NCBI RefSeq assembly: GCF_003932715.1
Contig: NZ_CP020700.1
Location: forward strand, 7,214,501 to 7,278,500
Source: Streptomyces tsukubensis
GTDB taxonomy: Bacteria > Actinomycetota > Actinomycetes > Streptomycetales > Streptomycetaceae
Reading direction: 5' to 3'
DNA length: 64,000 bases
Shown: in pieces, positions 1 through 47,691 of the stretch
Numbering within the stretch: position 1 is the stretch's first letter
How the letters are laid out: each line of letters starts with the position of its first letter
Translations under genes and position numbers: made by a program
The notes under the pieces: model-generated
What the model was told of the DNA's origin: nothing
The model's input: only the letters and a program-made list of their open reading frames with translations
Databases searched by the model: none

Positions 1-3000
1 CTCGACCTCGGCCGGTTCCACCCGGTGGCCGCGGATCTTGACCTGGTCGTCGGTGCGACCCTCGTAGGCGATGCGGCCGTCGGAACGACGCCGGCCGAGG
101 TCACCGGTGCGGTAGAGGCGTTCGCCGGGCCGGAAGGGATCGGGGATGAAGCGCTGGGCGGTCAGTTCGGGCCGGTCGAGGTAGCCGATCGCCAGACCCG
201 GGCCGCCGATGTGGATCTCGCCGGTCTCGTCATCCGCGCAGCGACGCCCGTCCCGGAGGATCTCGACGACGGTGCGCGCAGCGGGGCGTCCGATGGTGAT
301 GTCATCAGGCCGGACCTTCTCGGACAGCGAGTAGACAGAGGTCTCGGTGGGCCCGTAGATGTTCCACACAGCCCTGGCCTGGTCGAGTGACCTGGCCAGA
401 GCAGGCGTCAGTGCCTCGCCGCCGGAGACGATCCGCAGGTGGCGGGGCGGTTGCCAGCCGTATGAGGTCAGTGCGGTGAAGAGGGACGGAGTGCCCATGA
501 GGAAGGTGGCACCGCGTTCGGCGATGGCCTCGTCGAGCAGCCCGGGGTCGCGGGCGACGGCACGATCGACCACATGCACGGTGCCGCCGCAGATCAGCGG
601 CAGGAGGATCTCCAGCTGGGCGAAGTCGAAAGAGAACGGGGCGAGCGCGAGCACCGAGTCCTCTTCGGTGAAGCAGAAGTCGTCCCGGCTGTACTGCAGG
701 ATGTCGGCGATGCCGCGGTGGGTGAGCACTGCTCCTTTGGGGGTGCCGGTAGAGCCCGAGGTGTAGATGACGAAAGCGGCATGGTGGGCTTCGGACGTGC
801 GGTCGAGGGCGGCGGTCCGCTGTCCGTCGCTGCCGGGCCGCTCGTCCGTGTACACGAGACGATGGTCGCCGGGGGGCGATGGAGGCTCGATGCCACGTCT
901 GGTCAGCACGGCTGCCGGTCGGGCATCGTCGATCATGAAGCGCAGCCGGTCCGCGGGGTACTCGGGATCGAGGGGGAGGTAGGCGCAGCCGATCGTCAGG
1001 GCTGCGAGCAGACCCGCGACGAGGTCGCGGGAGCGGTCCAGGTGGATGGCGACCCGGTCGCCGGGACGTACCCCTGAAGCTTCCAGCAGCACTCCCAGCT
1101 CTTCGGCGCGAGCCATGAGCTGGCGGTAGGTCCAGGAGCCGTCCTGGTCTCGGACGGCGATTCGGCCGGGCACCCGGAGGGCCTGTTCACCCACCAGGGC
1201 GTGGACGGAATCGCCGCCCGGACGGCCGTGGCCCGCATCCTGTGCGGTGCTGGTCTGTTCGGTGGCGGTGAAGCACCGCTGGTACAGCGCGAGTTCCGCA
1301 TCCACGCACGCGAGGATCGTTTCGCTGCGCTTGAAGCCGTGCCGTTCCCCGGCGAAGACCCGGTGCAGGTACGGTGCCCTGTCGGGGCGCACACCTGACA
1401 GGAAGAGCTCCGCCTGGGCGGGCGGGCAGATCGGGTCGGCGTCGCCCTGCAGCAGGACGAACGGTCGTTCGACGCGGGCTGCGGCCAGGGCGGGCGACCG
1501 CTCCGCATAGCGCTGCGCGGTCTCGGGCCACGGACCGATGAGGGAGTCGAGATAGAAGGCCTCGAAGCCGCCGTTCTGCGACTCTCGCCAGGTTGCCGGG
1601 TCCAGAACGGGGTAGAGCAGCACGGCGCAGCAGTAGATGTCCTGTGTGGTGAGGGACACGGCTGCGGTCCAGCCACCGGCGCTCGCGCCGCGGATGGCGA
1701 GCCGAGCCGGGTCGGCGGTGCCCTCGGCCGCCAGGGCGCGGGCCACGGCAGCACAGTCGTCGACGTCGGCGATGCCCCAGGAGTGCCTCAGCCGGTTGCG
1801 GTACTCCCGGCCGTACCCGGTCGACCCGCTGTAATCGACGCCGACCACGCCGATCCCTCGGCTGGTGAGGTAGGCGATCTGCAGATCGTAGGCCCGGGGG
1901 AATCGCCCGGTGGGGCCGCTGTGTGCGAAGACGACGAAGGGGGGGCTCTCACCGGGCAGTCCGTTGTGGTCGGGATTGCGCGGCAGGAAGACCGTGGCAT
2001 GCACAGGTCTGTCCCCGGGACCATCGAAAGTCCGGGCCTCGGGCCGTGGCAGATAGGCCCGGTCGACGACGGTGCGCGGCGCAGTGAGCTCGGTGGATGT
2101 TCCGGTGGTGGTGTCGAAGAGTACGGCGGCGAAGTCGCTGTCGGTGCCGGCACCGACAGCGATGAGCCGCTCGCCGCGGGCAGCCAACAACGGTTCCCAC
2201 TCCGTACGAGGTGAGAGCAGGTTGCGGAGTGTGCCCGTGGCCGGGTCGAGCACCGACAGCGTTGTGGTGCGGGTGCTGTGCACCATGACTGCGAGACATC
2301 CGCCCGGCAGCGGAGCGCACCAGCTCAGGCCTACTTTGGTGAGAGCTCCGGCGAACTCCTCCTCTCGCGGGCAGACGTTTGCTCCGGTACGACCGTTGGC
2401 GGTGGTGCGGTGCACATTCCACCAGCCGGACCCGTCCGTGATCGCGTAGAGCTCGCCGTCGTCGGTCCAGACGATCTGTGCGACGGCCTCGTCGGGCCCG
2501 CCGGCAACGACCCGCGCGGGTCCGAGTGTGCCGTCCGGCAGTACGTCCGCGACGAAGGCGCGGCTCGCGTCCCAGGGCATATCCGGGTGGTCCCAGCCGA
2601 TCCAGGCGACCTGTTCGCCAGTGGGCGAGGGCCGTAGGCCGGAAAGGAAGTCGCTGCCGGCCGTGAGGGGGCGCAGTGCGGCGGTGTCCTCGGCAGCACT
2701 GCCGTCCAGGGGAATCGCGACGAAGTCCCGAACGGGGGCCCCGCCGGGCCCGGTACTCTCCCGAATGCACCAGGCCTCGACGGGTGTGTCCCCGCTGCCG
2801 GAGGCCGGCATGAGGACAGGATCGGCGAAGCAGAGGGTGGAGCCGGGGGCCGGCACCGGGGTGAGCGGGCGTGGCCCGGCGCCGGGCACCTGCGATGCGT
2901 AGGCGTACAGGCGCTGGTCTTCGGCTTGGACGAACACCACCAGCGGGCCGTCGGCGCTGATCGTCCCGGCCCAGGCCCGGCCCCCGTACTCCATGAGGCG

Positions 3001-3219
3001 GCTGCGCACGTTCCACGGCGCGGGCAGGACGCTCTGGGCCGGGCCGCCTCCCTCGGTCCAGCGCATCAGAGTCGTGCGGCCGCCCTCGTCCGGCAGGCGC
3101 TCCGACCACCAGACCTCGTCGCCGACGAAGCCCGGCCAGTTCGGGTGGCTGTCCGTGGCGGCCACGTCAGCGGCCGTGATGGGGGAACTCCACGTCCCGA
3201 AGGGAGTGGCCTGCCTCAT
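1..3219 (-). CDS. S9 prolyl-oligopeptidase / NRPS adenylation domain fusion (3' end beyond window)
   Basis: One open frame of at least 1073 codons, read by hand without a stop, starting at the ATG at 3219 behind GGTAGAAGGA and running off the left edge. Residues about 1-400 look like the beta-propeller of an S9 peptidase. Residues about 400-650 are the alpha/beta-hydrolase part with the nucleophile in GASAGG (Ser513), Asp595 in GDADP and His627 in ERHGF. From about residue 665 the frame continues as an adenylation domain: A3 YTSGSTGTPKGA (about 819), A5 NIYGPTE (about 954), A7 YRTGDLG, and the A8 region close to the edge. The A domain should activate an amino or carboxylic acid as an adenylate; a carrier domain may follow outside the window. 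It is the last minus-strand gene seen in the phosphonate cluster, 18 bp after the reductase. What the peptidase does is unknown; trimming or proofreading of a peptide product is a guess. Confidence 0.85.
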   Translation of the reverse strand, partial: MRQATPFGTWSSPITAADVAATDSHPNWPGFVGDEVWWSERLPDEGGRTTLMRWTEGGGPAQSVLPAPWNVRSRLMEYGGRAWAGTISADGPLVVFVQAEDQRLYAYASQVPGAGPRPLTPVPAPGSTLCFADPVLMPASGSGDTPVEAWCIRESTGPGGAPVRDFVAIPLDGSAAEDTAALRPLTAGSDFLSGLRPSPTGEQVAWIGWDHPDMPWDASRAFVADVLPDGTLGPARVVAGGPDEAVAQIVWTDDGELYAITDGSGWWNVHRTTANGRTGANVCPREEEFAGALTKVGLSWCAPLPGGCLAVMVHSTRTTTLSVLDPATGTLRNLLSPRTEWEPLLAARGERLIAVGAGTDSDFAAVLFDTTTGTSTELTAPRTVVDRAYLPRPEARTFDGPGDRPVHATVFLPRNPDHNGLPGESPPFVVFAHSGPTGRFPRAYDLQIAYLTSRGIGVVGVDYSGSTGYGREYRNRLRHSWGIADVDDCAAVARALAAEGTADPARLAIRGASAGGWTAAVSLTTQDIYCCAVLLYPVLDPATWRESQNGGFEAFYLDSLIGPWPETAQRYAERSPALAAARVERPFVLLQGDADPICPPAQAELFLSGVRPDRAPYLHRVFAGERHGFKRSETILACVDAELALYQRCFTATEQTSTAQDAGHGRPGGDSVHALVGEQALRVPGRIAVRDQDGSWTYRQLMARAEELGVLLEASGVRPGDRVAIHLDRSRDLVAGLLAALTIGCAYLPLDPEYPADRLRFMIDDARPAAVLTRRGIEPPSPPGDHRLVYTDERPGSDGQRTAALDRTSEAHHAAFVIYTSGSTGTPKGAVLTHRGIADILQYSRDDFCFTEEDSVLALAPFSFDFAQLEILLPLICGGTVHVVDRAVARDPGLLDEAIAERGATFLMGTPSLFTALTSYGWQPPRHLRIVSGGEALTPALARSLDQARAVWNIYGPTETSVYSLSEKVRPDDITIGRPAARTVVEILRDGRRCADDETGEIHIGGPGLAIGYLDRPELTAQRFIPDPFRPGERLYRTGDLGRRRSDGRIAYEGRTDDQVKIRGHRVEPAEVE

Positions 3220-3237
3220 GATGATTTTCCTTCTACC

Positions 3238-4386
3238 TCAGTGGATTTCGCGGATGGCCTGGAGGACCAGTGATTCGTCCAGCCGCACGGGGTTGTTGAC
3301 GGCCCTGGCGGTGGAGCCCGTCCCGGCCCGGACACAATCCGCCAGATCGGCCTCACGTACCCCGTAGTCGGAGAGCTGCGGGGACCAGCCCAGGTCGGAG
3401 AGCAACCCGGCCAGGTGGTCCGGCACTCCGGCTACCGTCAGGCGCCAGGCGGCGGCCACGGTCTCCAGCTGGACGCGGACGTGATCGGGCCCCCGATCGT
3501 CCTCGCAGTACGCTTCCAGCTGTTGGGCGTTGTAGCCGTACAGCCAGCGGAGGTTGAGCAGACAGGCCACGCCGTGGGGTACCCCGTAGCGGCGTGTCAG
3601 GTGGTAGGCGAACGCGTGTGCTGCGGTGGTCCGGGTCACGTTGATGGCCGCGCCCGCGTCGAGTGCGGCACGGGCCAGCCGCACGCGGACCTCGGGGGAG
3701 TCCTCCTTGAGGCGATTCCCCAGTGGACCGACGAGACCGTCCAGTGCCCGCCGGGCGTCCGTCCGCGAGGCGTCCGTGGAACGCCGTGCCCAGAGCGATT
3801 CCACCGCGTGGCAGAGCGCGTCCATGGCGCAGCTGGTCGCCACGGTGGGCGGGCAGCCGACGGTGAGCTCGGGATCAACGAGGGCATGAGTGGCGGCGGC
3901 CAGCGGGTGGTCGAACGAATGCTTGCGATCACCGTCGAAGACCGTTGCGAACTGAGTGACCTCACTACCGGTCCCGCTGGTCGTGGGGACCAGTACGAGA
4001 GATTCGACACCCGTGACGGGTCCGTTCGGTCCGTCGTCCGCGCCACCGGCCAGACAACGCAGGGCTGCAGGGCGGCCGGCCGGCAGGGCTCGGACGAGCT
4101 TCGCCGTGTCCATCCCGCTGCCTCCGCCGAGGCCGACGACGACCGTCGGACGCCAGGCGTCCCGCAGGGCGCAGCCGGCCAGGACATCGTCCAGGTCGGG
4201 GTTCGACCGGAATCCGGAGAAGATGCGGTGCCGCGGGCTGGCCCGCCAGTGTCCGAACCCGGCTCTGTCCAGACCCCTCTCACTGGATACGACCAGAACG
4301 CGCTCCGCCCCGAGTCCGTCCACCAGGGAATCGAGGCCACGCACCGTGCCGGCGCCGAAGATCACCTTCCCTGTGGTCTCAGCCAC
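3238..4386 (-). CDS. iron-dependent alcohol dehydrogenase, probable phosphonoacetaldehyde reductase
   Basis: Group III Fe-ADH of 382 residues. The dinucleotide-binding GLGGGSGMDTAK lies near residue 86-96. Metal ligands are visible as D and H in MDALCHAVE (about 189 and 193), H in FAYHLTRRYG (about 262) and H in VPHGVACL (about 271). Family members next to pepM and ppd reduce phosphonoacetaldehyde to 2-hydroxyethylphosphonate, as in phosphinothricin, fosfomycin and dehydrophos clusters. Starts: an ATG at 4428 would overlap ppd by 50 bp; I prefer the GTG at 4386, which has GGAG seven bases upstream and overlaps the ppd stop by 8 bp, giving translational coupling. The function rests on family plus context. 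Confidence 0.85.
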   Translation of the reverse strand: MAETTGKVIFGAGTVRGLDSLVDGLGAERVLVVSSERGLDRAGFGHWRASPRHRIFSGFRSNPDLDDVLAGCALRDAWRPTVVVGLGGGSGMDTAKLVRALPAGRPAALRCLAGGADDGPNGPVTGVESLVLVPTTSGTGSEVTQFATVFDGDRKHSFDHPLAAATHALVDPELTVGCPPTVATSCAMDALCHAVESLWARRSTDASRTDARRALDGLVGPLGNRLKEDSPEVRVRLARAALDAGAAINVTRTTAAHAFAYHLTRRYGVPHGVACLLNLRWLYGYNAQQLEAYCEDDRGPDHVRVQLETVAAAWRLTVAGVPDHLAGLLSDLGWSPQLSDYGVREADLADCVRAGTGSTARAVNNPVRLDESLVLQAIREIH

Positions 4387-5494
4387 GGTGCTGCTCCGCT
4401 GCACGCAGCCGCTGTGCGAAGCCCTCACGGATGTCGGTCGTCGTCATCGCGGCCGTCGCCCGCGAGAACACGGACGCACCGCCACTCGACACGCGCGCCA
4501 CCACGCAGTGCGGACCGTTGCCGCGCAGTGCGGTGTCAAGGGCCGATGTGACTTCCTCGACGGTGTGGCACACCTGGGCGGAGACGTATCCGGCCGCCCG
4601 GGCCACTGCGGCCAGGTCCGTGGCGTGCGAGGTGGTGGCCTGTCCGCCGGTGGACTCGTAGGAGCCGTTGTCGAAGACCAAGTGGACCAGGTTGCCGGGC
4701 CTGGCAGCTCCGACCGAGGACAGGGTGCCCATGTGCATGATCGCCGCGCCGTCCCCGTCGAGGACGACCACCGGGAGTCGCGGCGAGCGCAGTGCCGCAC
4801 CCAGTCCGAAGGCGAGTGCATGGCCCATCGAACCCTGCATGTAGAAGTGGTCCTTGGAACCGGTCACCCCGAACAGTTCCCGAGAGGTGTAGCCGGTCGT
4901 GGAGACCACCGCAACGCCCGCGAACAGCGGTTCGATGGCGCGCAGCACTTCGACCCGGCCGAGGCCCGCCACTTCCGGTGCGTCACCGGCGGCGCGGTTC
5001 TGCTCGATGGCACCCTTCTGGGTGAGGACGAACACGCTCCGGCGCTCGGTCAGAAACTCCTCGGCCTCGTCGAGGGCCGGCCCGAGGTCCGTCGCGGTGG
5101 CCGGCACGGTCACATGCGGTACGCCGACAGCGTCGAGGATCTTGTGCGTGGACGTGCCCATCACTGCGTGCTGAGGCTCGTCCTGTGCAGGGTCGGGCCA
5201 GCCGCGCAGGCTCATGAACACCACAACGGGGATGTTGTAGGTCTCGGTGAGCGAGGTGAGCGGATTGACGAGGTTACCCAGGCCCGAGTTCTGGGCGATG
5301 ACTGCGGAACGTCGACCGTGCACCGCTGCTCCGGCGGCCGCGGCGAGGGCGGCGCCCTCGTTGGAAGCCGGAAGGTAGCGGCCCTCACGGGTGAGTCGTT
5401 CGATCGGTCCGGAGAAGTAGGAACAGGGCACGCCTGCTACGAAGTCGATGCCTCGTTCCGCCAGCGTGGTGCAGAAGTTGTCGTTGGTGATCAC
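4379..5494 (-). CDS. ppd: phosphonopyruvate decarboxylase
   Basis: A 371-residue thiamine-diphosphate enzyme that converts phosphonopyruvate to phosphonoacetaldehyde and CO2, which makes the reversible PEP mutase step go forward. The N-terminal half carries the conserved GVPCSYFSGPI segment and an early Glu in ASNEGAA that should activate the cofactor. The C-terminal half has the ThDP/Mg motif beginning VLDGDGAAIMHMG and ending with VFDNGSYES. The length is normal for the family (about 370-400). The GTG start overlaps the pepM stop as GTGA, so the two genes are coupled. The trio pepM-ppd-reductase in this order defines the early pathway to 2-hydroxyethylphosphonate. Confidence 0.95.
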   Translation of the reverse strand: MITNDNFCTTLAERGIDFVAGVPCSYFSGPIERLTREGRYLPASNEGAALAAAAGAAVHGRRSAVIAQNSGLGNLVNPLTSLTETYNIPVVVFMSLRGWPDPAQDEPQHAVMGTSTHKILDAVGVPHVTVPATATDLGPALDEAEEFLTERRSVFVLTQKGAIEQNRAAGDAPEVAGLGRVEVLRAIEPLFAGVAVVSTTGYTSRELFGVTGSKDHFYMQGSMGHALAFGLGAALRSPRLPVVVLDGDGAAIMHMGTLSSVGAARPGNLVHLVFDNGSYESTGGQATTSHATDLAAVARAAGYVSAQVCHTVEEVTSALDTALRGNGPHCVVARVSSGGASVFSRATAAMTTTDIREGFAQRLRAAEQHRG

Positions 5495-6354
5495 GCTTCG
5501 AGTGCCATCCAGTCATCGAGCTTCTGCAGGGCGAAGACGTCGGATATCGGTGCGATGCCGTCCTCGACCCCGAGGGAGGTGCCGTCGGCCAGGATGGTGC
5601 CGAAGGTGTCGCGCAGCGCCTGGACCGTGGCGCGCAGGCCCTGGTTCGCGTAGATCACCACGGAAGCCCCGTGCTTCTCGGCGTCGGCGGCCGCCCACTG
5701 CGGGTAGGTGGTCGGAACGATCACGACGGGGCAGCGGCCGTCCCAACCGTTGAGGAACTCAACGATCTCGCCCTGGTCGCGCCGCTTGGAGTGGATCAGG
5801 ACGGCGTCGGCACCACCCTCCGCGTAGGCGTAGCAGCGTTCCAGTGCCTCGGCCACGCCCAGCTTGTTGATGAGGGCCTCGGTCCGTGCTATGACGTAGA
5901 AGTCCTCACCGCGCTGGGCAGCCTTGGCGGTTTCGATCTTGCGAACGAAATCGGGCAGGGGCAGCAGGTCGTGGGCAGTCTCCGCGAAGCTGTTGACCTT
6001 CGGGTAGACCTTGTCCTCGATGCAGACGGCCGTGATGCCGGCCGCCTCGTACTCACGGACCATGTGCGCGACGTTGAGGTTGTTGCCGTAACCGGTGTCG
6101 ACGTCGGCGACGACCGGGATGTCGATCGCTTTCTGCATGGCTGCGGCGGCCGCGAGGTACTCGGTCATCGTCAGAACGCTGGCATCGGGTAGGCAGCGGG
6201 ATGCCGAGACCTCGAAGCTCGACGCCCAGACCGCCTGGAAGCTGGCCTCCTGGGCGAGCTTGGCACCGAGGGCGTCGTGTGCGCCTGCGATACGTACCAG
6301 TCTGCCGTTCGCCATCACGTCACGGAACGAGCGGTACGAAGGGTGCATGACCAT
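5491..6354 (-). CDS. pepM: phosphoenolpyruvate phosphomutase (PepM)
   Basis: A 287-residue TIM-barrel enzyme of the isocitrate lyase/PEP mutase family. It forms the C-P bond by rearranging phosphoenolpyruvate to phosphonopyruvate. The diagnostic PepM motif EDKxxxxxNS is present as EDKVYPKVNS (about residues 117-126); lyases of the same family have KRCGH-type motifs instead. DVDTGYG (about 84-90) supplies metal-binding acidic residues. The start at 6354 has AGGAG nine bases upstream; an internal ATG two codons later is possible. This gene defines the region as a phosphonate or phosphinate cluster. A 161-bp gap separates it from the upstream dioxygenase gene, so it may have its own promoter. 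Confidence 0.97.
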   Translation of the reverse strand: MVMHPSYRSFRDVMANGRLVRIAGAHDALGAKLAQEASFQAVWASSFEVSASRCLPDASVLTMTEYLAAAAAMQKAIDIPVVADVDTGYGNNLNVAHMVREYEAAGITAVCIEDKVYPKVNSFAETAHDLLPLPDFVRKIETAKAAQRGEDFYVIARTEALINKLGVAEALERCYAYAEGGADAVLIHSKRRDQGEIVEFLNGWDGRCPVVIVPTTYPQWAAADAEKHGASVVIYANQGLRATVQALRDTFGTILADGTSLGVEDGIAPISDVFALQKLDDWMALEA

Positions 6355-6515
6355 CAGCTGTACTCCTGTGGGCAGATCGGATGTAGCCGGGGCCTTCAGA
6401 GGTGCGGGCGCACCCGTGAGCCCCGTGCTCGGGTCGTGGCAAGGTGGGGCGGTGCTGCGCCGGCGGATCCGCTTGTTGCGGTGCGGCGAGATCTGATCCG
6501 CGCCCTGTGGCGGAC

Positions 6516-7358
6516 TCAGGACGAACGTTCGGTGATCCAGGTGCGCAGCATCAGGCGCTGGTGGTCGCCTTGACGGTCCTGGAACTCAACCCGGCCGTGC
6601 AGGGTCCAACGGTTGTCGATGAAGATCATCTCGCCCTCCCGGAGCCGGTCGCGGGACCACAGGTCCGGCGAGTCGAGCAGGGAGTCCAGAAGGTCGAAGG
6701 CCAAAATTTGATGATCCGTCAAAGGCGGTGCCCCCGGCTGGCGGTGGCCGATCTCGATGTACTCCCGGAGGTAGTGGATGCGGTCCCTGCCGTACTTGTT
6801 CTCCAGCACGGGCCGAAGCACAGTGCGCGGTGCGCCGGGAGCGTTGTCGCGGGTGTCGAAGCGCACCGGGAGGCGCAGAGTATCGAGCACCCCGGGGTGT
6901 TCACCGAGCCGTTTCACGAGGTCGGCGAGTCTGACAAGCACCAGGTCGCCACCTACGGCGGCCTGATGAACACATGTCAGGGTGAAGTAGTCGGGCACCA
7001 TGCCGAGGCGGTGCGGCGAGTCGGTGTGCAGATTGCCGCCGCCCCGGGAGTCCGAATAGCGGCCGGTTGCTCCCTCGCCCAACTCCACTCCACGATAGCG
7101 GACTTCGCGCACCAGAGTGCCGGCACTGTCCTGGGGTAGCAGTTCCCCCAGGGCCGTGGAGGCTGTGACTGCGAAGGTGTGCAGCTCGTCCGGCCTCAGG
7201 TCCTCCAGTCCGGTGAGGACGAAGCAGCCGGGATCACCGTCGAGATATCGGCGGGCGTAGGGCATGACCACCTCACGGAGACGGTCATGTGTCGTGTTCC
7301 TGATCATTTGCTCGGGCACTTCGAACCGCACGGGATCGAAGGCGTGGTGCGTGGTCAT
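6516..7358 (-). CDS. Fe(II)/2-oxoglutarate dioxygenase, TauD/clavaminate synthase-like
   Basis: A 280-residue non-heme iron oxygenase. The facial triad is visible: H111 and D113 in LHTDSPH, and the distal His (about 254) in DNRWTLHGR; Arg residues in QRLMLRTW (about 268-272) fit 2-oxoglutarate binding. The start at 7358 is preferred over an upstream start at 7394 because GAGGGG sits six bases before it. First minus-strand gene of the phosphonate cluster, divergent from the CYTH-like gene. It probably hydroxylates, desaturates or rearranges a phosphonate intermediate or its amino acid partner; the sequence does not show which. Confidence 0.85.
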   Translation of the reverse strand: MTTHHAFDPVRFEVPEQMIRNTTHDRLREVVMPYARRYLDGDPGCFVLTGLEDLRPDELHTFAVTASTALGELLPQDSAGTLVREVRYRGVELGEGATGRYSDSRGGGNLHTDSPHRLGMVPDYFTLTCVHQAAVGGDLVLVRLADLVKRLGEHPGVLDTLRLPVRFDTRDNAPGAPRTVLRPVLENKYGRDRIHYLREYIEIGHRQPGAPPLTDHQILAFDLLDSLLDSPDLWSRDRLREGEMIFIDNRWTLHGRVEFQDRQGDHQRLMLRTWITERSS

Positions 7359-7945
7359 GAAAGGCCCCTCGGCAGAACTGAACCATCCGGACACCGCAGC
7401 TGCCGACCAGCTGCTTTATGTCTCGGGCAGTGACGGAGAATGCCGTCTGCATTGATGGACCAGGGTGCACGCTTCGGGGCCGGACGTGCCGGCGCAGCAG
7501 TCCGCGAATGGACCTGTCTCCTGTGCTGCCGGCAGTGCTAAGAGCCGTGCTTTCTCTGACTTCACTATCCCCCCGTGATGACCCCGTGCGCCCCGGATCC
7601 TCCAGAGCAGGCTCGGCGCGATCTTGAGCTTCATTGAGTCGAGGAAGCCTGTCAAGGTAATCGAGCCGGGCGAGCGTCAACATCAGGGCATGTCCGATTT
7701 CAGGTATTTTTTTCGCATGGATCGCGAGCCCCGCGGGTGATCGGCGTTCCGATCGGCAGGGCCGCGTCGAATGAGTGTTGACGATTAGCTTGACCCGGCC
7801 TAGGTTTCTCCCTGATTCCAGCGACTCGCCACTCCGGTGTCACCGGCCTGGCCAACTTCCGTCGCTACTTCCTGGCACCGGAGCAGGCGGTGCGGGTTCG
7901 CGCTCGGCACCGACCGGGCGGAGTGAATGCCTCGGCTACTTTCAG
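7359..7945. promoter_or_regulatory. divergent intergenic region of the phosphonate cluster
   Basis: About 590 bp between the minus-strand dioxygenase and the plus-strand CYTH-like gene. It has clearly lower GC stretches (for example around 7690-7720) than the flanking genes and no open frame with Streptomyces-like third-position GC. It must hold the divergent promoters of both arms of the cluster. I could not assign specific -35/-10 boxes. Confidence 0.5.
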
Positions 7946-9277
7946 ATGATCCTCAACCATCGCGATGCGGAATCCGTTTCCGTTCAACCTGTGGGAGCAC
8001 ATTTGGCTGCGCAGATGATTTCAGAAGGCGAGGAGAACTGTGGGGTCGTCGAACGGCGGCTTGTCTTCGCCGACGTCGCCTACCAGTACTCGGTGGAGCC
8101 GAGCCGCGGGGCGCCGTTTGTGGTGACACTGCTCCACGGGACACCGGACGACCGCACGCGGGCGATGGAGTTCGTCCGCACCGAGCAGAGCTCGGCCCGC
8201 GATATCACCCTGCTGGGCGCCGACGGGTCCGTGCAGGCCGCGGTGCAACCTGCCGAACCGATGGCGACCTGGACCGGAACCGGCTTCAGTACCGAATTCG
8301 AGACCTTCCTGAGGGCCTCGTTCCCGCCGGCCGCCGACCGGGTGGACGGTATGGACCCGACTCCGCTGGCGCCACTGCTCCTGCTGCGCACCCATCGGGG
8401 CGTGCACGCGCACACCGAGGTGCTCCTCTGCGCACGGGTGCGGTCCATCGGGACGCTCTTCGCGCGGGTGGGTGGCTTCGATCACCCGGCGGCAGCGACG
8501 GAGGCCGAGCTGATCCCGTCGGCACTCTCCTTTGCGGATGTCCTGAAGGATCGGATCCGTATAGAGGGGAACGCTTACACCACCTATGAGCAAGGCACTG
8601 AGATCGAGCAAAAAATCACCCTCTCCGACGAGGTGGCGATCTGGTCGCTGACCATGGGGTTATGGACTTCGATCGAGCAGGGTGAATTCTCCGAGTTCAT
8701 CACCGACCCTGGCTATGAGCTCACCCGCTGGCATTTCGTGCAGGAGAATTTCGAAATCATCGGCCCAGCCGAAGAAGTCGGCCATATGGCGTTCCAGGAG
8801 AATCCCGACGGGAAGTACCAGCTAAAACACAAGCGATTCCGTGAGGATTCGCTTCGGCGTACGGAGATGTTCCGCAAGGGAATTGATGTCCCTGAGCGAG
8901 ACTTTGAGGGATTTCTTGCGAGGGAGTATCCGGAATTGAAATTCCGTCGCCTTCCAAGCTTTCGCAGAACGCGTTTCGACATCAACGTCCAATCCGTCCT
9001 GACCGGCCACTACTTCGGCATCGAAACGGACGAGGTCACCGTTGAAACAGATTCTGGCCGGCACAAGCTGCGCCAGGTCGAGATCGAGTACCTGGAGACG
9101 CGTTGGCACGAGGGGATGAACGCGGCCTCGATCGACACCGACCTGGAGAAACTTACTGTTCTGGTCGAAGACCATCTGGCCGCCGTCGGCATCACCGCCC
9201 GGCGTAACCACTACTCGAAGCTGTCGTTTCTGCGGGACTGTCTGAACGGCACCGCCGCGCAGCCGACCGGGTCATAG
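7946..9277 (+). CDS. CYTH-like (triphosphate-tunnel fold) domain protein of unknown function
   Basis: About 443 residues if started at ATG 7946; ATG 8015 is an alternative and neither has a convincing ribosome site. The N-terminal half is unrecognised. The C-terminal half opens with TEIEQKITL, matching the ExExK signature of CYTH/TTM proteins (E219, E221, K223), and later has paired acidic/basic strands such as LRQVEIEYLETR (about 375-388). CYTH proteins bind triphosphates or phosphate-rich ligands in a beta tunnel, as in thiamine triphosphatase and class IV adenylate cyclase. A ligand here could be a nucleotide or a phosphonate, but that is inference. A TTA codon at 8660-8662 suggests bldA-dependent translation. 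The gene is 35 bp upstream of the ArgG-like gene and probably heads that operon. Confidence 0.65.
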   Translation: MILNHRDAESVSVQPVGAHLAAQMISEGEENCGVVERRLVFADVAYQYSVEPSRGAPFVVTLLHGTPDDRTRAMEFVRTEQSSARDITLLGADGSVQAAVQPAEPMATWTGTGFSTEFETFLRASFPPAADRVDGMDPTPLAPLLLLRTHRGVHAHTEVLLCARVRSIGTLFARVGGFDHPAAATEAELIPSALSFADVLKDRIRIEGNAYTTYEQGTEIEQKITLSDEVAIWSLTMGLWTSIEQGEFSEFITDPGYELTRWHFVQENFEIIGPAEEVGHMAFQENPDGKYQLKHKRFREDSLRRTEMFRKGIDVPERDFEGFLAREYPELKFRRLPSFRRTRFDINVQSVLTGHYFGIETDEVTVETDSGRHKLRQVEIEYLETRWHEGMNAASIDTDLEKLTVLVEDHLAAVGITARRNHYSKLSFLRDCLNGTAAQPTGS

Positions 9278-9312
9278 GCGCGGGCTCCTTCTCGAAGCAA
9301 CAGAGCGCAAGG

Positions 9313-10536
9313 ATGTACGCATTGAAGAGCAGCAGGAGAAGCATTCGCTCCATCCGGGAGCTCACCGACGGCGAGGTCGACCTGCACGGTCCCATCGTCA
9401 CGCTGTTCAGCGGAGGATTGGACAGTTCATACCTCCTGTACCGGCTGGTCCAGGCCGGCGCCACCGATGTGCACGCCATCAGCGTCGGTCTGGGAGGTGA
9501 TGAGAGGAACACCCAGATCCAGCGGATCACTGACACCCTCGGCGTTCGGCTCCGGTTCTCGGATGCCCGGGCCGCCTTCGTGGAGGAGTTCGTCCGACCG
9601 GCGATCGCCGCGAGCTCGGTCTATCTCGACACCCACCCGATCAGCTCCTCGCTGAGCCGTCCGCTGATCGCCCGGATCGCCGTGGACATGGCCCGCGAAG
9701 TCGGTGCCCAGGTCATCCTGCACACCGCGAACCGCTCGCAGAACACCCTGCGCCGGCTGAACTGTTCTCTCGAACTCCTGGGATTCGAAGGGTATTTCGG
9801 CAGTCCGTACGAACTCGATCCAGTGGACCGCGAGGTCAAGATCAAGGAACTGCGTGCGGTAGGCCTGGACGAGATGGCCGAACGATCCGCCAGTGGCGAC
9901 TCGAACCTTTGGTGCCGGGAGTTCGAGTCCGGTGCCCTCGACGATCCCGAGGAGCACTCCGTCCCCGAGTCCTATTACCGATGGAGCGCCGTGCGCGATT
10001 CCCCGGTTCCACCGACAGACGTCTCGGTGACCTTCCGGGCCGGTGTACCCGTGGCACTGAACGGCCGTCAGTGCCCGCTGGCCGACATCATCGAGGAGCT
10101 GAACTGGACCGTCGGGGCACACGGACTCGGACGCTACACCGGTCTTGAGCACCTCCCGGGCGGTGCGAAGGTCCTTGAGATCCGGGAGATGCCTGCCGCC
10201 TGGCTTCTGCTGGCCTCGCGCAGACATCTGGAGACGGCCGTCCTCGACGCCGAGACGATTCGCGAAAAGCTGCACGTTGAACAGGTCTGGGTGCGCGAAG
10301 CGTTGGAAGGCCGGTGGTTCGGTGCGCTGCGTGCGGCGTGTCAGGCATTCGTGCTGCAACTCTCCACACCGCTCGACGGGGTCGTCCGGTGGAGGCTGTC
10401 CGGTGGCCGGGCGTCCACCACCTCCATCGTGGCGGACGCACCGCTCTATGTCCGCAACCGTGAAGACTGGGAGCACGCTGCCATCCGCAGTGAGCTCGCC
10501 CACTGGGGAAGGGGGACCGGACAGTGGCACAGCTGA
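9313..10536 (+). CDS. argininosuccinate synthase-like ligase
   Basis: 407 residues with the two-domain layout of argininosuccinate synthase. The N-terminal PP-loop FSGGLDSSYLL (about 33-43) binds ATP for adenylation. Other ArgG-like segments are HTANRSQNTLRR, DSNLWCREFESGALDDPEE, FRAGVPVALNG and EELNWTVGAHGLGR. ArgG activates the ureido group of citrulline as an AMP ester and couples it to aspartate. A second copy inside a phosphonate cluster more likely joins a ureido, amide or carboxylate substrate to an amine in the natural product. Whether an aspartate or an aminophosphonate is the nucleophile cannot be told. It overlaps the next gene by 13 bp. Confidence 0.85.
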   Translation: MYALKSSRRSIRSIRELTDGEVDLHGPIVTLFSGGLDSSYLLYRLVQAGATDVHAISVGLGGDERNTQIQRITDTLGVRLRFSDARAAFVEEFVRPAIAASSVYLDTHPISSSLSRPLIARIAVDMAREVGAQVILHTANRSQNTLRRLNCSLELLGFEGYFGSPYELDPVDREVKIKELRAVGLDEMAERSASGDSNLWCREFESGALDDPEEHSVPESYYRWSAVRDSPVPPTDVSVTFRAGVPVALNGRQCPLADIIEELNWTVGAHGLGRYTGLEHLPGGAKVLEIREMPAAWLLLASRRHLETAVLDAETIREKLHVEQVWVREALEGRWFGALRAACQAFVLQLSTPLDGVVRWRLSGGRASTTSIVADAPLYVRNREDWEHAAIRSELAHWGRGTGQWHS

Positions 10537-11291
10537 CCTCTGCAAGTCCGCGCGCACAACGGCGCCTGGTGGTGATCGACGCGACGGTGCCCGTGGCGGA
10601 GACGGCCCACTCTCTTGACTGTCACACGTTCTTCGTTCAGCAGCCGGGCTCGCCGGCTCGCAGCTTGGTGGACGATACATCGGGCTACTACTCCGTCGAC
10701 TTCACCGGCGACATCTTCGCCGACTTCGTCGACAAGGTCCTGCGCCCGCTGCATCCGACCGCGGTGGTCTCGGTGAGCGCGGGCGGATCGTCTGCCGCCG
10801 CTGTGGCCGGTGAACTGCTCGGCACGCCGGGCGCGTCCGTCGCCGCCCTGGCGGCTCTGGCCACTGTGGCGGACTGCGCCCACGCCGCCGGTGCCGGGGC
10901 ACGGTCGACAACCGCCTACACCCATACCGCCGGGGGCGCCCACCGGCTCGTCGGGCTGTTGCCGACGCCACCGGTTGCCACCGGCCCGCCCGGTCAGGGC
11001 GACCCCGCAGTCTCCCTGTGCCCCGAGGATCAGCAGGCAGCCGAGCGCGCCGTCCGCGACGTCCTCGACCGGTCCCGAATCACACACGGCCCTGTCCGCA
11101 TGGAGCTGTGGCTCACTGCCGACGGCATCCGGGTCGTCCGCGCGGAGCAGCGCGTCGACCAGGACGAGGCCGCTGTCCTGCACCGCCTGACCGGTGTCGA
11201 CTTGGTTCGACAGACTCTCGACCTGTCCCTCGCGGCGGGCGCCGGAGGGCACACCGCGCCGACCGAAGCGCTGGACGGAAGTACACGATGA
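10524..11291 (+). CDS. shortened, degenerate ATP-grasp-like protein
   Basis: 255 residues from the GTG at 10524 (GGAAGGGGG upstream). The first about 90 residues resemble the N-terminal domain of ATP-grasp amino acid ligases (RRLVVIDATVPVAETAHSL, DKVLRPLHPTAVVSVSAGG, AGELLGTPG). The last about 60 residues resemble the end of the ATP-grasp fold (HGPVRMELWLTADGIRVV, LTGVDLVRQTLDL). The middle, where the ATP-binding core should be, is replaced by a short Ala/Gly/Thr-rich stretch, and the usual E-x-N-x-R-x-G-G motif reads AEQRVDQDE. I therefore expect it to be catalytically dead or to serve as a partner of the full-length ATP-grasp protein, whose ATG overlaps its stop (ATGA). Independent substrate binding is also possible. 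Confidence 0.6.
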   Translation: MAQLTSASPRAQRRLVVIDATVPVAETAHSLDCHTFFVQQPGSPARSLVDDTSGYYSVDFTGDIFADFVDKVLRPLHPTAVVSVSAGGSSAAAVAGELLGTPGASVAALAALATVADCAHAAGAGARSTTAYTHTAGGAHRLVGLLPTPPVATGPPGQGDPAVSLCPEDQQAAERAVRDVLDRSRITHGPVRMELWLTADGIRVVRAEQRVDQDEAAVLHRLTGVDLVRQTLDLSLAAGAGGHTAPTEALDGSTR

Positions 11292-12493
11292 AACCAACCG
11301 CCTTGTTCATCAACAAGCATCCGTACTCCCACTTCAACCGCCGTGGACGCTACATCCTGCCCGCCGGCGAGATCGACATCCACATGGTGACGCGCAATCA
11401 GATTCATGGTGGGCTCAGTGGACTGGACGCCCATCCGCTTGATCACGTCGCGGTCTGCGACGCCGAGGAGGAAGGGCGCTGGCGCGCCGTTTGCGAGTGG
11501 ATGCTGCACAACCACCCGATCAGCCGGGTGATTGCTGTCCATGAGCGGGCAGTTCTGCTCGCGGCGGAGATGCGGTCGAAGTTCGGACTGCCGGGCATGC
11601 AGTACGAGACCGCCGAACGCTTTCGCGACAAGCTCCGGATGAAGGAGACCGTTCGCGCGGCCGACGCCGCAGAGTTGCCGGAGTTCGTCGCCCTCGATAC
11701 TCCGGAGGACCTCACCGCTCTCGACTGGGGTGCCGGCCGCAAGGTCATCAAGAGCCGCCGCGGTCTGGCCGCCAAGGACCTCTACATGGTGGATACTCTG
11801 GACGACGCCAGGCGCATAGTCGCCGGACTCGATCTGTCGGGCGGGCGCTACGGGCTGGAAGACTTCGTCACCGGCCAGATCTATCACTGCGACTCGGTCG
11901 TGCAGCAGGGCCGGATCAGGTTCACCAGCGTCGGAAGGTACCTCGCCGATCCCGCGAGCTACGGGCCGGGGCGCACCTTCGGCACCGTTCTGGTCCGGGA
12001 GGGTGAGCTCGTCAAGCGGATCAACGAGCTGAACGAGGCGGTCCTCGGCGCGCTCGGGATCCAGGACGGCACCACTCACCTGGAACTGTTCCATACTCCC
12101 GAAGACCGGCTTGTCTTCTGCGAAGTCGCCGGACGCCCGCCCGGGGGCGTCATCCCGCCCGTGATCGAATGGCAGTACGGATTCGACATCGTCGAGACGC
12201 AGATCAGGATCGACGCCGGGCTGGGCTTCGCGCCGGCTGATCCACCACAGTCCACCGATGACGGCACCTGCGGCTTCATCGCGTTCTACCCCGGCTGTGA
12301 CAACCGCGAGATCCGCCCCGAGCGCTTTGCCGCGCTGGGCATCGTGGAGCACCTCGCTCACCACGGAGCAGGCAATGGCGACGGCGGAGTTCGGCATTCC
12401 ACCGACTTCCAGGACTCGTACGTCGTCAAGGCGCCGGACGATGCCACGCTACTGCGCCGGATCGCTGCGATCGAGGACGAGTACCGGGGCTGA
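11288..12493 (+). CDS. ATP-grasp family ligase
   Basis: 401 residues. ATP-grasp fold indicated by GAGRKVIKSRRGLAAKD (ATP-binding Lys and small loop, about 157-173), the GLEDFVTGQIYHCDSVV segment typical of carboxylate-amine ligases, THLELF and FCEVAGRPPGG near residue 275-300 (Mg/ATP-binding acidic residues). Such enzymes activate a carboxylate as acyl phosphate and join it to an amine, for example in dipeptide formation. As the last gene of the plus-strand operon, ATGA-coupled to the short ATP-grasp-like gene, it is the likely peptide-bond-forming enzyme for the phosphonate product, working with or instead of the S9-A NRPS protein. Confidence 0.85.
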   Translation: MKPTALFINKHPYSHFNRRGRYILPAGEIDIHMVTRNQIHGGLSGLDAHPLDHVAVCDAEEEGRWRAVCEWMLHNHPISRVIAVHERAVLLAAEMRSKFGLPGMQYETAERFRDKLRMKETVRAADAAELPEFVALDTPEDLTALDWGAGRKVIKSRRGLAAKDLYMVDTLDDARRIVAGLDLSGGRYGLEDFVTGQIYHCDSVVQQGRIRFTSVGRYLADPASYGPGRTFGTVLVREGELVKRINELNEAVLGALGIQDGTTHLELFHTPEDRLVFCEVAGRPPGGVIPPVIEWQYGFDIVETQIRIDAGLGFAPADPPQSTDDGTCGFIAFYPGCDNREIRPERFAALGIVEHLAHHGAGNGDGGVRHSTDFQDSYVVKAPDDATLLRRIAAIEDEYRG

Positions 12494-12596: not shown

Positions 12597-13025
12597 ATGG
12601 CCGAGCAGGTGCGCTCGCGCATTTCGGCGTACGCGATCGCTACGGCGGGTGAGCAGCTGCTGCTCACCCGGCTCTCCGAAGCATCGCCCGTCTTCCTGCC
12701 CGGGCTGTGGCACCTCCCTGGCGGTGGCATCGACCCCGGGGAGCAGCCCGGCGAGACCCTGGCCCGGGAGATGTGGGAGGAGACCGGGCTCGAACTCGCG
12801 AGCGCCCGGCTCGTCGACGCTCGCAGTTACACGGCTCACCGTCTCGGTGTGCACTGGCATTTGGTGGCCCTGTTCTACCGGGTCGAGCTCAAGTCCGGCA
12901 CTCTCAAGGTCATCGAGACCGGGGGATCTACCGCCGAGGTCCGCTGGTTGCCTCTGCCCGACCTCGTCGATGCGGTGCTGTCCCCCGCCGCGATCGACGC
13001 GCTCGGCATGATCGGCCGCCGCTAG
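12597..13025 (+). CDS. Nudix hydrolase
   Basis: 142 residues from ATG 12597, with GGAGG seven bases upstream. The Nudix box GGGIDPGEQPGETLAREMWE-ETGLEL (about residues 40-65) is intact, including the REMWEETG core that binds the metal. The family cleaves nucleoside diphosphates linked to another moiety; the substrate is not evident. It begins 103 bp after the ATP-grasp gene in the same direction, so it may be the edge of the phosphonate cluster or an unrelated housekeeping gene. Confidence 0.85.
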   Translation: MAEQVRSRISAYAIATAGEQLLLTRLSEASPVFLPGLWHLPGGGIDPGEQPGETLAREMWEETGLELASARLVDARSYTAHRLGVHWHLVALFYRVELKSGTLKVIETGGSTAEVRWLPLPDLVDAVLSPAAIDALGMIGRR

Positions 13026-46785: not shown

Positions 46786-47691
46786 TCAGGTTCCGTGCGG
46801 AAGGGTGAAGTCGAAGACGGCCGAGTCGAAAGCCGTGTACTCCTCGTAGCCGAGGAGCCGGTAGAGCCGGGAGCGGGTCTGCATACGGGGCAGCAGGGAT
46901 TCCTGGGTGCCCTCGGCCGAGAGCGTGCGCAGTCCGTCCTCGACGGCCCCCATGGCCAGGCGCAGCAGGGTGACCGGATAGAGCGCGATGTCGTAGCCGA
47001 GGTCGTGCAGGGTACGGGCGTCCAGCAGTCGGCCCTTGCCGAACTCGGTCATGTTGGCGAGCAGGGGAACGTCGATCGCGGCGCGGAACGCCGCGAACTC
47101 GGCCTCGTCCGCGAGCGCTTCGGGGAAGATCGCGTCGGCTCCGGCGTCGACGTACGCCCTGGCCCGGTCGATCGCCGCGTCCAGCCCCTCGACGGTACGG
47201 GCGTCGGTGCGGGCCATCAGGAGGAAGCCGGGGTCGCGGCGGGCGTCGACGGCGGCCCGGATGCGGCGGACCATGTCCTCGCGCGGTACGACCGACTTGC
47301 CGTCCAGATGGCCGCAGCGCTTCGGGTTGACCTGGTCCTCCAGATGCAGCCCGGCCAGTCCCGCGTCCTCCATCAGCTGGACGGTCCGCGCGGCGTTCAC
47401 GGGCTCGCCGAAGCCGGTGTCGGCGTCGACGAGGACCGGCAGATCGGTGGCCCGGGTGGTCTGCTGGGCGCGGGCGGCCACCTCGGTGGCCGTGGTCAGC
47501 CCGATATCGGGCAGTCCGAGGTCGGCGGCGAGAACGGCGCCGGAGAGATAGGCGGCCTCGAAGCCGGTGTCCTGGATGAGCCGGGCGGAGAGCGGATTGA
47601 GGGCGCCGGGCATCATGAGCAGCCGGTCCTCGGTGAGCCGTTTCCTCAGGGCGCTGCGGCGTTCCGCGGGGGTGGTGCGGGTGTGCAGCAT
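46786..47691 (-). CDS. prpB: methylisocitrate lyase
   Basis: 301 residues. Metal-binding DADTGFG and the diagnostic KRCGH motif (in NPKRCGHLDGK) mark methylisocitrate/isocitrate lyases, unlike the EDK motif of the PepM elsewhere in this window. It splits 2-methylisocitrate into pyruvate and succinate. Its ATG overlaps the prpD stop by one base (TGATG). Operon order prpD-prpB-prpC on the minus strand. Confidence 0.9.
   Translation of the reverse strand: MLHTRTTPAERRSALRKRLTEDRLLMMPGALNPLSARLIQDTGFEAAYLSGAVLAADLGLPDIGLTTATEVAARAQQTTRATDLPVLVDADTGFGEPVNAARTVQLMEDAGLAGLHLEDQVNPKRCGHLDGKSVVPREDMVRRIRAAVDARRDPGFLLMARTDARTVEGLDAAIDRARAYVDAGADAIFPEALADEAEFAAFRAAIDVPLLANMTEFGKGRLLDARTLHDLGYDIALYPVTLLRLAMGAVEDGLRTLSAEGTQESLLPRMQTRSRLYRLLGYEEYTAFDSAVFDFTLPHGT

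Follow-up and report, generated by a model that had tools for sequence, protein, structure and literature searches.

The 64,000-nucleotide stretch of the 8.02-Mb Streptomyces tsukubensis genome considered here (G000:C1:7214501-7278500, referred to as the window) opens inside a real and recurrent orphan phosphonate gene cluster, the product of which has no assigned structure and in which phosphonate supply genes are combined with an unusual, portable assembly module. The gene families, their motifs and linkage, their recurrence and the composite make-up are seen directly. It is also fairly probable, judging from the gene families, that these intact genes direct the formation of an uncharacterised phosphonopeptide or aminoacyl phosphonate and fall into two parts, one for supply and one for assembly and export. 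Genes A to N span ∼20.6 kb in total. The window edge cuts the cluster inside gene F, and the cluster reaches 8.1 kb beyond the left edge, where five extra genes (A to E, G000:C1 7206355-7212679) all lie on the minus strand; coordinates to the left of the window continue the window numbering below 1. Genes F to J are also on the minus strand, and K to N are on the plus strand, divergent from F to J. The GC-frame gene caller shortened G and H and missed M, and the coordinates of these three are taken from another source. An initial annotation of the window had named PepM, a phosphonopyruvate decarboxylase (Ppd), an iron-containing alcohol dehydrogenase (Fe-ADH), a dioxygenase, an S9-peptidase/adenylation fusion, a CYTH-like protein, an ArgG-like protein and two ATP-grasp-related proteins, and all of them were recovered by Pfam, NCBIfam, profile or fold searches.

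Gene I (5491..6354, minus strand; PF13714 2.7e-55) predicts PepM, phosphoenolpyruvate mutase. The product retains EDKVYPKVNS, a form of the EDK..NS motif that is taken here to mark mutases, and aligns over 265 residues (3.5e-86) to its nearest solved chain, the PEP phosphomutase 5unc. Adjacent gene H (4379..5494, minus strand) predicts Ppd, which scores 348 bits with TIGR03297 (cut-off 312.5). A mutase-type PepM is therefore linked to an exergonic follow-on enzyme, as expected of a PepM pathway. Gene G (3238..4428, minus strand; PF00465 2e-27) predicts an Fe-ADH, presumed to be a phosphonoacetaldehyde reductase, and is 67-68% identical in three relatives. Together, PepM would convert phosphoenolpyruvate to phosphonopyruvate, Ppd would convert this to phosphonoacetaldehyde, and the Fe-ADH would produce 2-hydroxyethylphosphonate, the compound predicted by the initial annotation and supported by this gene set. 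Gene J (6516..7358, minus strand; PF02668 3.8e-16) predicts a TauD-family 2-oxoglutarate dioxygenase that keeps HTD and the distal His (HTD...H). It shares 44-48% identity with the TauD genes of three loci (L032, L033 and L034), labelled dehydrophos-like here from their resemblance to the dehydrophos gene set, but only 29-31% with those of three other PepM loci. DhpA of dehydrophos converts 2-hydroxyethylphosphonate to 1,2-dihydroxyethylphosphonate, and J, a presumed 2-hydroxyethylphosphonate C1 hydroxylase, would form the same product.

Relatives of the cluster were collected by a scan of 84,980 species using an alignment of N, which returned 55 loci including eight with N at 66-73% identity. 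Ten loci were compared, namely those eight, G335 and the window's own, all chosen for holding N or L; among loci reaching 66% in N, those with names come from Streptomyces and Kitasatospora. By tblastn, every one of the ten loci has A, B, L, M and N; K is found in eight, Ppd and PepM in five, and ADH, J, D, E and full-length F in four. Gene C is found at 52-100% identity in five (a further 32% match in Streptomyces sp. PTY087I2 was not counted), and a phosphoglycerate mutase gene of the iPGM type in three. PepM is 82-84% identical in four named Streptomyces, of which S. aureocirculatus, S. alboflavus and S. typhae carry near-complete clusters and Streptomyces sp. CB01881 a shorter one. The combination of phosphonate genes and module hence recurs in five species and at least three genomic settings (this genome, CB01881, and the other three sharing a right flank), and the five PepM proteins form one clade with support of 94 in a tree of 23 sequences. 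More widely, ArgG-like matches at E≤1e-60 were detected in 27 of 392 sampled same-genus genomes, four of them at 74% or more (the window's own, G335, G097 and G382), and PepM at E≤1e-70 in 20 of 295 sampled genomes. Sixteen 20-kb neighbourhoods from the 19 other PepM genomes contain no match to K or L at 1e-8, and none to N above 35%.

The remaining five of the ten loci (Kitasatospora xanthocidica, S. regalis, PTY087I2, S. luteolifulvus and G335) have no linked pepM, and carry the GNAT, MFS, ArgG-like, M and N genes at 40-74% identity and K in three cases. No PepM, Ppd, ADH, TauD or NRPS (non-ribosomal peptide synthetase) match was detected in the stretches fetched. The genomes of G335, K. xanthocidica, S. 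regalis and S. luteolifulvus contain no match to this PepM at E≤1e-30, and PTY087I2 has one 30% match elsewhere. For S. regalis and K. xanthocidica, the stretches retrieved gave no tblastn match to K; by eye, a K-like N-terminus begins just where L093 ends. S. luteolifulvus, PTY087I2 and G335 have genes for a class II aldolase, a HisC-like aminotransferase, a nucleotidyltransferase and a thymidylate-kinase-like protein (by Pfam in G335, by tblastn in the others). A composite make-up, a portable coupling and export module plus phosphonate supply, is thus plain from gene content. The assembly and export core, A, B, L, M, N and usually K, forms the portable module, shared with sister clusters that lack phosphonate genes. 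Since five loci hold ArgG-like and ATP-grasp genes without linked pepM, the earlier view of these proteins as phosphonate tailoring enzymes as such does not hold. A tree built for the ten loci from four core proteins, concatenated, rejects a clade of the five phosphonate clusters (p-AU 8e-62), suggesting repeated exchange of the phosphonate part; with S. regalis removed, p-AU is 0.34 and there is no rejection. The result thus comes from S. regalis alone, and repeated exchange is therefore not firmly established. The cluster at L069:3422-17097, with no linked pepM, has class II aldolase, HisC-like aminotransferase and nucleotidyltransferase genes and a desaturase-family gene; the best NCBIfam for the latter is GntB at 47.9 of 380 bits, so far below the cut-off that no product is implied.

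The S. aureocirculatus NRRL ISP-5386 genome (L151 and L089) includes relatives of A, B and D to N at 50-83% identity, and its single PepM match at E≤1e-30 lies inside this cluster. It differs in the presence of the iPGM gene and in having no C at E≤1e-90. DSM 40386 and NRRL ISP-5386 are assumed, from the ISP numbering, to be the same type strain. In a screen of 940 actinomycetes, S. aureocirculatus DSM 40386T was identified as a phosphonate producer by 31P nuclear magnetic resonance and placed in a likely-novel group, and the available portion of that paper gives no structure for its phosphonate (PMC12723261). The cluster family has therefore probably been noticed already as an orphan, by strain. 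Because a close relative of the cluster is present in a strain already known as a phosphonate maker, the search for the structure can begin immediately. No paper naming these cluster genes was found in the open PMC literature, nor any that joins phosphonate with argininosuccinate or with phosphoglycerate mutase, or argininosuccinate synthase with an N-hydroxylase and ATP-grasp; a search for the CYTH domain with biosynthetic gene clusters returned nothing related, judging by the listing. The proposal that no described phosphonate cluster has this gene set was borne out in that literature, and the gene set differs from the argolaphos cluster (below). However, it is not unique to one strain, being found in four more species, one of them the published, structurally unassigned producer.

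Gene L (9313..10536, plus strand) predicts an argininosuccinate-synthase-related protein of family NF038212 (argG_rel; 580.8 bits, cut-off 425), which is not an ArgG equivalog (TIGR00032, 179.4 bits, cut-off 268.2). The window copy was aligned with 15 relatives (55-74% identity), the ArgG of the same genome (G000:C1:1334464-1335630) and a 36% relative. In 10 of the 16 argG_rel rows, the PP-loop SGGLDS is kept, the GKGNDQ of ArgG is replaced by RSQNTL in all 10, and the Tyr of the ArgG motif EVYEAPG is replaced by Arg. The changed positions are presumed to bind aspartate and citrulline in ArgG, with GKGND taken as the aspartate site. L may adenylate a carbonyl and couple it to an amine, probably one other than aspartate. 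Amidine formation, an alternative put forward in the initial annotation, is for L a hypothetical activity, its GKGNDQ motif being changed.

Gene N (11288..12493, plus strand) predicts an ATP-grasp ligase of the L-amino-acid-ligase type. The best chain in a profile search is the L-amino acid ligase 4wd3 (1.4e-27), which we take to be RizA of rhizocticin, and N is 66-73% identical in nine relatives. Gene M (10524..11291, plus strand) is a degenerate L-amino-acid-ligase remnant; it can be aligned to homologous ligases of 404-405 residues from Nonomuraea and Micromonospora (L096 and L097) but has lost the central ATP-binding stretch. M is reduced to little beyond the N-terminal domain in some relatives and is fused to N in four. 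As this central segment is missing, the reading of M as a second working ATP-grasp enzyme was rejected, and M is probably not functional as such.

Related genes were also seen in other contexts. Relatives of K, M and N are present in L096:3954-12264 (Nonomuraea) and L097 (Micromonospora). Pfam matches in L096 include AAA kinase-like and dCTP-deaminase-like genes, an AurF-type N-oxygenase and a DCD-PPDK fusion, and the matching genes of L097 begin with near-identical residues. In the six small argG_rel loci L082-L087, the recurring neighbours of the ArgG-like gene are a dioxygenase (2OG-Fe_Oxy_2), a transporter (EamA) and a regulator of LuxR type (Pfam on one member per family), and the same dioxygenase family is present in L072 and L088. 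The argG_rel genes adjoin NRPS-like genes in L073, L075, L076 and L078-L081, and six of these seven loci have an M18 aminopeptidase-like gene and a thioesterase-like gene (Pfam on one member each). In L077, the GC-frame caller called one gene only.

Gene K (8015..9277, plus strand) has no Pfam, NCBIfam or PDB-sequence match. An AlphaFold model (mean pLDDT 85.5, pTM 0.85) searched with Foldseek has triphosphate tunnel metalloenzymes as its two best matches (7nsf, 2.4e-6; 5a60, 2.7e-6), with a TM-score (TMt) of at best 0.63. A Mediator Med18/20 subunit is third and nearly as good (2.9e-6). Given the modest TM-scores and the close Mediator matches, the ExExK motif matters for the assignment; E196, E198 and K200 of EIEQK are invariant in 11 sequences. 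With this motif and the predicted tunnel fold, K is assigned as CYTH / triphosphate tunnel metalloenzyme-like.

The S9-peptidase/adenylation fusion runs past the window edge. Gene F occupies 1..3219 and a further 1764 bases to the left of the window (to G000:C1:7212737, minus strand), and predicts a 1660 aa NRPS in which S9 and adenylation domains are followed by a peptidyl carrier protein and a condensation domain (Pfam Peptidase_S9 4.5e-37, AMP-binding 5.7e-79, PP-binding 1.6e-12, Condensation 2.3e-27). Both GASAGG and the condensation motif HHLVADG (HHxxxDG) are present. In S. eurythermus (L135:5280-7172), a 50% relative of F residues 6-646, the S9 part, is located near an ATP-grasp gene, and the other cluster genes have no tblastn match there.

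To the left of F, all on the minus strand, gene E (-3074..-1821) predicts a biotin-carboxylase-like ligase in which the bicarbonate-site Gln and Glu are replaced. Relative to chain 9yx0_D, QVEH is changed to PLAY and the Arg two positions before is kept; the site is presumed to correspond to Gln294 and Glu296 of E. coli AccC. Gene D (-4020..-3148) predicts a P-loop kinase-like protein with weak thymidylate-kinase-like matches. Kinship to the thymidylate-kinase-like gene of the sister loci was considered and rejected, as just 29 residues around the P-loop align (E 2e-4). Gene C (-5373..-4105; PF13434 4.9e-102) predicts a Lys/Orn-type flavin N-hydroxylase, the nearest solved chains of which are 6xbb (named Monooxigenase, and presumably DesB), 5o8p (desferrioxamine lysine N6-monooxygenase) and 7us3 (putrescine N-hydroxylase). 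Gene B (-7158..-5959) predicts an MFS transporter by Pfam, and gene A (-8145..-7198; PF13480 2.4e-5) a GNAT/FemAB-like protein.

Every substrate, the reaction sequence, the view of the product as a peptide, and the functions of E, K, L and M are inferred. A possible step after hydroxylation by J is phosphorylation by D. F would load an amino acid, which its C-terminal condensation domain could hand to a soluble acceptor, and further residues would be added by N and by A, the latter presumed to depend on aminoacyl-tRNA. L may contribute the coupling proposed above, C would N-hydroxylate an amine, and B would export the product. GNAT-fold aminoacyl-tRNA transferases build dehydrophos, and that of valanimycin uses a hydroxylamine acceptor (PMC12945691), which fits the pairing of C with A. 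A broader proposal is that the module is a portable carrier cassette (an L-amino-acid ligase, a transferase that depends on tRNA, an ArgG-like ligase whose acceptor is new, and a CYTH enzyme recruited to biosynthesis) with exchangeable warheads, here a triose-phosphate-mimic phosphonate and elsewhere one derived by aldolase and aminotransferase. This is speculative and considered rather unlikely; if true, it would give a triphosphate tunnel enzyme its first biosynthetic role in a natural product, none being known to us or found in the literature search. We know of no described phosphonate role for an ArgG relative with altered motifs, a CYTH protein, or a biotin-carboxylase-like ligase without the bicarbonate-site Gln and Glu. 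Phosphonates are a productive class of antibiotics and herbicides, and PepM is often the basis on which the clusters for them are grouped. Because nearly the same coupling and export genes occur with and without PepM, comparisons should follow the coupling module too.

Several observations weigh against the phosphonopeptide interpretation. The best NCBIfam for PepM, TIGR02320, scores 281.5 bits, below its cut-off of 319.55, so the family call rests on the best match, the motif and the linked Ppd that exceeds its cut-off. The Fe-ADH is likewise below the cut-off of its best model (TIGR03405, PsrA; 177.3 bits, cut-off 423.7), as is C with histamine N-monooxygenase (266 of 700 bits). The adenylation pocket residues of F, read by eye, could not be matched with confidence to a specificity code. 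In CB01881, the stretches compared have no tblastn match to ADH, J, D or E and F matches at only 36%, and E is missing genome-wide at E≤1e-75; the ADH, J, D and E steps are therefore not general to the family, or the CB01881 warhead differs. At E≤1e-90, C is missing from three of the five genomes with the phosphonate cluster, and N-hydroxylation is therefore not universal.

The gene for iPGM, a phosphoglycerate mutase of the 2,3-bisphosphoglycerate-independent kind, introduces a different reading of the product. In S. aureocirculatus, S. alboflavus and S. typhae it lies between J and K (L089:4932-6251, and the same place in L091 and L092), scores above the TIGR01307 cut-off and is the only match in each genome, whereas iPGM exceeds the cut-off in only 9 of 101 sampled same-genus genomes (26 of 101 with any match at E≤0.001). 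The product might then be a 3-phosphoglycerate mimic, with D forming 1-hydroxy-2-phosphoryloxyethylphosphonate from dihydroxyethylphosphonate, a glycerate analogue, the peptide acting as a carrier for cell entry, and the iPGM of the relatives serving as a resistant target copy or a mimic isomerase. The resemblance of J to the TauD enzymes of dehydrophos-like loci agrees with this, as does the conservation of D, which at 83-84% identity to the three relatives matches that of PepM (82%). However, the thymidylate-kinase-like matches of D are weak and allow another substrate, and neither the genome studied nor CB01881 has an iPGM match. For lack of iPGM in the studied genome, this unlikely mimic is retained as a rival and not as the main claim. 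The dehydrophos-like loci themselves share PepM, Ppd, ADH and the J-like TauD with the cluster, but Pfam also places glycerate kinase, Ldh_2 and class-V aminotransferase genes in L032 and L033, none of which is among the Pfam matches of A to O; in the dehydrophos set, the TauD hydroxylase is likewise followed by glycerate kinase, a dehydrogenase and an aminotransferase. L032 has an aminotransferase-GNAT fusion, and L034 was judged by eye from the first residues of its genes.

An argolaphos-type product, in which ATP-grasp joins a phosphonate amine to an arginine-like residue, the GNAT adds a residue, and L and C alter or N-hydroxylate the guanidine, was assessed by direct comparison with the 21-kb argolaphos (alp) locus of S. 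monomycini NRRL B-24309 (L102). By tblastn, PepM is 54%, Ppd 45% and ADH 40% identical, and N shares just 31% with the ATP-grasp protein, AlpC. The loci have a PF13480 GNAT and a NUDIX gene in common at the Pfam level, the NUDIX gene here probably being outside the cluster. The published table lists an MFS gene and a PRK02186-type ATP-grasp, paralleling B and N, and the ATP-grasp and GNAT proteins are candidates for amide bond formation in argolaphos (PMC8976061). The best solved relative of N, being an L-amino acid ligase, also suits this reading. In contrast, L, K, F, J, C, D and E have no match in the alp locus (1e-5), where the table instead gives AlpG, a YqcI/YcgG protein, an aminotransferase, a nucleoside diphosphate kinase and a nucleotidyltransferase (PMC8976061). 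In the Pfam results for A to O there is no AlpG-like (HepD/HppE-type) dioxygenase or aminotransferase, no AlpK/AlpL route to aminomethylphosphonate and no YqcI/YcgG haem arginine N-hydroxylase, the flavin Lys_Orn_oxgnase gene being found instead, and L has lost GKGNDQ. Identity with argolaphos was therefore rejected, and an argolaphos-type product is distinctly unlikely. That A, B, L, M and N (with K in three) occur without linked pepM in five loci, in genomes with no PepM match or, in the fifth, a 30% match elsewhere, could also mean that a phosphonate pathway (D to J) merely sits beside an unrelated peptide pathway (A, B, C and K to N). Yet A, B and C are to the left and K to N to the right of D to J, the combination recurs across the species and settings given above, and the five PepM proteins are a single clade, making independent neighbours very unlikely. 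Decay or silence of the cluster, with no product formed, would accord with the degenerate M and with the one TTA codon in A to O, codon 216 of K, by which K may be under bldA control. This is extremely improbable, as all 15 frames from A to O are open with third-position GC (GC3) of 0.78-0.91, motifs are present in I, J, L and F, and phosphonate production is reported for a species that holds a closely related cluster (PMC12723261). A two-part cluster for a phosphonopeptide or aminoacyl phosphonate remains the preferred reading.

The right end of the cluster is likely to be N, because a shared run of other genes, matched by their first residues, follows N in S. aureocirculatus, S. alboflavus and S. 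typhae. Gene O (12597..13025, plus strand; PF00293 1.3e-18), which predicts a NUDIX hydrolase, has no tblastn match in nine relative loci and a lone 34-residue blastp match, to an S. regalis gene some kb away, and is probably outside the cluster. A PEP_mutase-family gene further into the window (46786-47691, minus strand) was considered as a second phosphonate pathway and rejected, as it predicts methylisocitrate lyase PrpB (TIGR02317, 409.9 bits, cut-off 354.4). At the other end, the genes beyond A differ, with DUF309 and TP_methylase genes in this genome and DUF2252 in S. aureocirculatus.

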